A stretch of 64,000 nucleotides of DNA, taken from NCBI RefSeq assembly GCF_020860705.1, contig NZ_JAJBTT010000054.1, forward strand, positions 1 to 64,000, in the 5' to 3' direction. Positions 57,156-57,995 of this stretch are shown piece by piece (the first letter of the stretch is position 1; the number at the start of each line of letters is the position of its first letter). Origin of the DNA: Akkermansia sp. Its GTDB lineage: Bacteria > Verrucomicrobiota > Verrucomicrobiia > Verrucomicrobiales > Akkermansiaceae. A program made the position numbers and the translations under genes. The notes beneath the pieces were generated by a model. The model ran no database searches. It was not told the origin of the DNA and worked only from the letters and a program-made list of their open reading frames with translations.

Positions 57156-57809
57156 TTATGCCCTGCGGCGGCGCATCAGGAGTGCCGCCAGGCCGAGGAG
57201 TCCCAGGGATGCGGTTGCCGGTTCCGGCACGGCGTCTCCGCGAAGCTCCAGTTGGGAAATCCCCAGGAAGGTGCCTCCGGTGCCGGGGGCTTTGGCATTA
57301 ACCGTCAGGGTGAACGTTTCTCCGGCTTTGACCGTGAGGGGAGTATTGAAGGAGGCTTCCTGCACGTCCGGTGTTGGCGTGCCGTCCTTGTCAGCCTGGA
57401 CGCGCTCGAAACTCAGATTAGCTGTGGAGGATGAGTCACCGGAGGCCAGGGTAACGGTGGCGGTTCCCGCCTTGGCGTCCGAATTGTCATGGCGTGTACC
57501 GGTACCGGTGACGAACTGGAAGCCCAGGTCAAGGGAGGAAATGGTGATATCCTGAACAGCCGTGAAGGAAAAAGTAACGGTCCAGCCGGTATTGTTGTCC
57601 TTCATTTGGAGGCTGGGAACCAGAAGGTCCGCAGCCAGGTTGGTGGCAAGGGACGTGGAGGGATTGGTGAGCGTGACGGAAGCGTTTTCCAGAAAATCGC
57701 TGCCCGTATTAATGGCCGTCTGGTGAAACTGGGTTTCATACAGGGTGGTTGCCGCCTGTACCCCGGAAATGCACAGTAAAAAAGCTGAAATGGAGAGAAG
57801 TGCCCTCAT
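57156..57809 (-). CDS. PEP-CTERM surface protein
   Basis: 217 residues from ATG 57809; ATG 57818 is in frame 9 nt upstream. Signal peptide (MRALLSISAFLLCISGVQA), a beta-rich body with many Thr/Ser, and a classical sorting tail: VPEPATASLGLLGLAALLMRRRRA (shown up to the Arg cluster, final 24 residues begin at VPEP). PEP-CTERM proteins are processed by an exosortase and kept at the surface or released with exopolysaccharide. The promoter region is flanked by a perfect inverted repeat that ends 2 nt before the upstream ATG, so expression may be switched by DNA inversion. Confidence 0.85.
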   Translation of the reverse strand: MRALLSISAFLLCISGVQAATTLYETQFHQTAINTGSDFLENASVTLTNPSTSLATNLAADLLVPSLQMKDNNTGWTVTFSFTAVQDITISSLDLGFQFVTGTGTRHDNSDAKAGTATVTLASGDSSSTANLSFERVQADKDGTPTPDVQEASFNTPLTVKAGETFTLTVNAKAPGTGGTFLGISQLELRGDAVPEPATASLGLLGLAALLMRRRRA

Positions 57810-57820
57810 GTGCGTCATAC

Positions 57821-57995
57821 TAGCGGAGTGTTAATCCGCAGGGTGGTTTTTATCTTTCTTAAAGAGAGAATCAACGGTAAATAAAGGGATAAGAAAGGAA
57901 AATGAATCAAGGCCCTTTCTTTTTTTTGCAATGAATTTTTAATCAACATGTTTTTAACGTATTTTTTACGTTGACTGCGGATTAACACTCCGCTA
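57821..57995. repeat. Candidate invertible promoter (21-bp inverted repeats, 133-bp interior)
   Basis: Perfect 21-bp inverted repeats at 57821-57841 and 57975-57995. Each has its own dyad, GCGGA-GTGTTAA-TCCGC, with a 7-bp centre, the form of a tyrosine-recombinase crossover site. The interior is AT-rich. On the gene-ward (minus) strand the fixed sequence TAGTAT (57822-57817) can serve as -10. In the orientation given, the -35 position reads CACCCT. After inversion it would read TTGACT at 17-bp spacing. A weak alternative in the present orientation is TTGATT, 16 bp, TAAAAA inside the interior. Confidence 0.68.

Follow-up and report, generated by a model that had tools for sequence, protein, structure and literature searches.

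Upstream of a PEP-CTERM gene in this Akkermansia genome lies a 175-bp element bounded by inverted repeats, which raises the question of whether the element is an invertible promoter for that gene and, if so, which part of the promoter moves and which enzyme may move it. The element was analysed within a 64-kb stretch of DNA, here called the window, which is contig C28 of a 3.07-Mb genome, and within a genus set of 76 genomes. The gene (positions 57156 to 57809, reverse strand) encodes a 217-aa protein with a signal peptide and a C-terminal VPEPATA motif with a membrane helix; the protein matches the Pfam PEP-CTERM family, and one exosortase is encoded by the same genome. Five orthologues aligned to it are 80 to 83% identical. 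Its predicted structure is a beta-sandwich of low confidence, and since a fold search with this model returned weak beta-sandwich matches only, no function is claimed from it. We have little doubt that the 175-bp element belongs to the CGGATT...AATCCG class of Akkermansia invertons and is phase-variable, with a split promoter that switches the PEP-CTERM gene; the basis in sequence comprises the repeats, an inversion between orthologues, the geometry of 49 invertons and the identity of the gene, from which we infer transcription, switching within the strain itself, the enzyme and the role of the surface protein.

The two arms, at positions 57821 to 57841 (forward strand, TAGCGGAGTGTTAATCCGCAG) and 57975 to 57995 (reverse strand), are 21 nt each, 100% complementary and spaced by 133 nt, the latter being the invertible segment (57842 to 57974, unstranded). 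Within each arm stands the 17-mer GCGGAGTGTTAATCCGC or its complement (the 17-bp cores, 57823 to 57839 and 57977 to 57993), flanked by TA at the outer side and CT at the inner side, and each arm holds the pattern GCGGA-N7-TCCGC. The earlier note had described the perfect 21-bp repeats around 133 bp, the GCGGA and TCCGC flanking a 7-bp centre, and a left arm ending 2 nt from the upstream ATG at 57818; positions, length and complementarity all proved correct, and the pair is unique in the window, where no second inverted repeat of at least 15 nt with arms 50 to 1,000 nt apart occurs. The uniform expectation for a 21-nt inverted pair within 500 nt is about 7e-6. Each arm differs by one mismatch from the Akkermansia inverton motif CGGATT...AATCCG, described by Jiang 2019 and found again as group 138 (PMC11892184), and the centres of the two arms are perfectly complementary. 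PEP-CTERM genes are enriched beside the A. muciniphila invertons of that group (PMC11892184), and the Akkermansia cps1 capsule inverton, which has the same inverted-repeat motif, has been seen in both orientations and flips in culture, in mice and in humans (PMC13343947). A phage collection searched with the locus gave no match.

Repeats of this kind could also be static, forming a hairpin, an attenuator or a MITE-like insertion without any inversion, as each arm is itself a near-palindrome and the terminal inverted repeats give the 175-bp element the look of a MITE. Such a reading is extremely unlikely: no terminator-like site was found in the region of the element, which moreover occupies the same place in front of the orthologous gene in G004, G005, G008, G009, G010 and G011, that is, in seven species with the window, and it is found in opposite orientations between near-identical flanks. 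When the gene was always set on the left, the flanks of G009 and G010, two close relatives, showed 98% and 100% identity, while the segment between them showed 95% identity inverted and 58% direct; the corresponding segment values were 85% inverted and 59% direct for G008 against G010, and 78% and 57% for G004 against G010. The G010 segment is thus inverted relative to those of G009, G008 and G004, and also to that of G005, and the G009/G010 pattern is, in alignment, what an inversion bounded by the repeats is expected to leave. Both orientations of the locus thus occur between orthologues of different species, and a wider contig search returned one A. muciniphila contig, apparently that of G009, and two distant ones matching in the PEP-CTERM part only. 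In G011 (G011:C20, L006), the nearest relative, the arms upstream of the PEP-CTERM orthologue have undergone a concerted change, with a centre 2 nt longer in both (GTGTGTTAA for GTGTTAA) and one mismatch between them; the resulting cores, and hence the spacer, are 19 bp long, which would put the promoter spacing off its optimum.

With inversion as the preferred reading, what the segment would carry can be read from its edges. A -35 hexamer, TTGACT (57971 to 57976, forward strand), is flush with the distal 17-bp core and faces away from the PEP-CTERM gene as assembled, while the gene-proximal inner edge holds CACCCT (57840 to 57845, reverse strand), which is no -35; a -10 hexamer, TAGTAT (57817 to 57822, reverse strand), lies outside the segment and 7 nt from the start codon. 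Inversion in silico puts TTGACT in the place of CACCCT, exactly 17 bp upstream of TAGTAT, giving 9 of 12 matches to the -35/-10 consensus, a score of consensus match only; as assembled, no other promoter-like pair scores above 8 of 12. The -10 is kept at the gene side in seven species, reading TAATAT, TAGTAT, TAACAT or TAGCAT in the six others. Toward its gene G010 reads TTGTTT-17 bp-TAATAT, the ON form, and in the window, G004, G008, G009 and G011 the -35 points away (OFF); by its sequence G005 is most likely OFF too, though a partial CTGTCA stands at its gene side. Every step that the earlier note had proposed for the promoter, from the fixed TAGTAT as -10 through the exchange of CACCCT for TTGACT at 17 bp to an assembled orientation that is OFF and an opposite one that is ON, was reproduced, and the comparison of strains that it suggested, run here on orthologues, yielded an OFF form in G009 and an ON form in G010, whose inverted segment supports the invertible-promoter reading as a whole. 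These data support a promoter divided by the recombination site, in which the -35 would lie inside the segment, the -10 outside it and the 17-bp core between them as spacer.

The same geometry recurs in a census of the genus, for which 40 stretches with listed motif sites were taken from three genomes, picked by the motif and not by promoter letters; all site pairs in these stretches, plus the orthologues, make 49 pairs, which are not fully independent, six being the window locus with its orthologues and some others being orthologous between genomes. In 45 of the 49 invertons a single inner edge has TTG directly against the 17-bp core, and in none do both edges have it; TA abuts an outer edge in 43 of the 49, and shifting the test by a single base reduces these counts to 2 and 1, respectively. 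This sharp loss at offset 1, together with the conservation of the -10 at the gene side in seven species, argues against a layout in which the whole promoter would lie inside the segment and the outer TAGTAT would be a coincidence. Most published invertible promoters are indeed wholly within their segments, and weak promoter-like pairs (8 of 12) occur within this one as assembled, on the gene strand, but with the -35 found inside and the -10 outside, we consider that layout very unlikely here.

The site is found at many places in the genome. The earlier note had suggested searching the genome for further copies of the site, and 84 exact motif sites were found, against 0 for the reversed pattern; TTGAC is flush at 34 of the 84 in this unselected count (control, 0), which, as there are two sites per pair, amounts to a little under one TTGAC per pair. 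In the census stretches the centres of neighbouring exact sites are complementary in 37 of 38 pairs, the exception falling between two adjacent invertons, which again argues against a static repeat. Most of the genes that the -10 side faces are of the signal-peptide, PEP-CTERM or sugar-transferase-like kind. The locus is thus a further Akkermansia inverton of an already known type, one of dozens in the genome. Nine contig ends lie within 60 nt of exact sites, with about 0.1 expected (G000 contigs C1, C8, C9, C17, C20, C21, C23, C26 and C27), which is consistent with a sequenced culture of mixed orientation, although sequence common to invertons may contribute. Elsewhere in the same genome, a stretch with 70% identity to part of the window inverton (G000:C40:109024-109139; L036 1501-1616) carries inverted repeats of its own, GCGGATTGATCATTCGC..., and its TTGACG faces a nucleotidyltransferase/aminotransferase-like ORF situated downstream. 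The highest site count in the genus belongs to G045, a 2.2-Mb member with 88 exact sites, 40 of which have TTGAC flush.

The OFF state of the window could be permanent, the locus having once switched and now being locked in its own species with the arms intact. Each arm is one base off consensus (CGGAGTGTTAATCCG vs CGGATTNNNAATCCG), the longer centre of both G011 arms would suit such a history, and the window and G011 are both OFF, as are 6 of the 7 orthologues in the assemblies. Yet the arms are perfectly matched over 21 bp, the two arms of G011 have the 2-nt change in common (with one further base different), which would be expected of continuing exchange, and most invertons of the genus assemble OFF too: oriented by side as assembled, 25 of the 49 are OFF and 8 ON, the remainder being ambiguous. 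We therefore regard a locked locus as unlikely.

The orthologues show that the start codon is the ATG at 57809 rather than that at 57818, because the latter, which runs into the -10, is absent from most of them. The -10 and the ATG at 57809 are 7 nt apart in six species and 6 nt apart in G005, and no Shine-Dalgarno-like sequence was found between the two. Since transcription starting about 7 nt past the -10 would begin on or next to the ATG, a leaderless mRNA is predicted for the PEP-CTERM locus only; for Akkermansia invertons at large a leaderless rule was rejected, as most other inverton genes start about 17 to 90 nt past the site.

As to the enzyme, no tyrosine or serine recombinase is encoded in the 64-kb window, in agreement with the earlier note, which had also recommended a genome-wide search for a tyrosine recombinase. 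The genome has 11 of these above the Pfam cut-off, four of them in one family of about 360 aa in which the catalytic R, K, R, H and Y are conserved and whose predicted structure has fold-level likeness to XerA, lambda integrase and the Tn1549 integrase. The box II position of tyrosine recombinases is usually His, and this family has Asp there (motif D-x-LRH, A1/A3 alignment). Serine recombinases were rejected as the general enzyme, none being found in G008 or G009. A tyrosine recombinase is plausible as the enzyme, narrowed by exclusion only: the complete genome of G010, with 74 exact sites, has four, namely two Xer-like proteins and two others, of 394 and 365 aa, and among non-Xer tyrosine recombinases the 365-aa protein alone was found in each of G008, G009 and G010. 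Its orthologue in the window genome, a 366-aa protein (G000:C16:76871-77926), is 92 to 96% identical to orthologues in six other genomes, and we give it, as the best candidate left by this exclusion, about an even chance of being the invertase. The presence or absence of the candidate across the genus was set aside as evidence, being confounded by phylogeny and scored with a model built from the window genome itself. G045, with its 88 sites, is an exception in having no close orthologue of the core recombinase, only distant (446-bit) relatives, and another member of the family may serve there. The core gene lies away from invertons, but several accessory paralogues lie near them; in L062, L063 and L114, accessory 360-aa paralogues directly adjoin invertons with the same motif, so an invertase gene might itself be phase variable.

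Taken together, the proposed mechanism runs as follows: (i) a site-specific recombinase, probably of the tyrosine class, would exchange strands in the two 17-bp sites, within their short centre, and so invert the segment; (ii) the -35 TTGACT would ride on the segment, with the 17-bp core as spacer, while the -10 TAGTAT would stay beside the PEP-CTERM gene; (iii) in the assembled orientation, with the -35 facing away, the gene would be OFF; and (iv) inversion, which places TTGACT-17-TAGTAT upstream of the surface gene, would complete a sigma70-type promoter with a predicted start at or next to the ATG at 57809 and a leaderless mRNA. The outcome would be ON/OFF heterogeneity of one cell-surface PEP-CTERM protein.

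Among known systems the element is closest to the CGGATT...AATCCG invertons of A. muciniphila, with which it shares the genus, the repeat motif (one mismatch per arm), an intergenic segment of about 150 bp and the occurrence of PEP-CTERM or other surface genes downstream, but it differs from those already described in species and target gene. The Mpi/Tsr-type invertible promoters of Bacteroides control capsule and surface proteins; they too belong to gut bacteria, invert a promoter between short repeats and govern surface products, but their repeats and promoter consensus differ and their promoter lies within the segment. E. coli fimS likewise is a short segment switching a promoter ON and OFF by tyrosine recombinases, but it carries the whole promoter, and its recombinases FimB and FimE are encoded adjacent to it, while no recombinase gene is adjacent here. 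Neither the split-promoter geometry nor the recombinase candidate was found in the Akkermansia inverton papers compared here, which include PMC11892184 and PMC13343947 but not Jiang 2019.

The finding extends surface-protein switches to a further Akkermansia species, and it makes ON and OFF readable from sequence by a precise grammar, with the -35 inside, the 17-bp site as spacer and the -10 outside. A promoter split across the inverton border might, by our own inference and not that of PMC11892184, explain the poor score of the published Akkermansia promoter motif within invertons (PMC11892184). The Akkermansia invertase is narrowed to a very short list, as G010 has its 74 exact sites and only two non-Xer tyrosine recombinases. 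Somewhat short of an even chance, in our estimate, is the wider proposal of a genus-wide design, in which the recombination site doubles as a 17-bp spacer and dozens of -35s move while the -10s stay fixed, all served in trans by the single conserved 366-aa tyrosine recombinase; if that were true, one enzyme would reshuffle the whole PEP-CTERM and capsule surface of Akkermansia.
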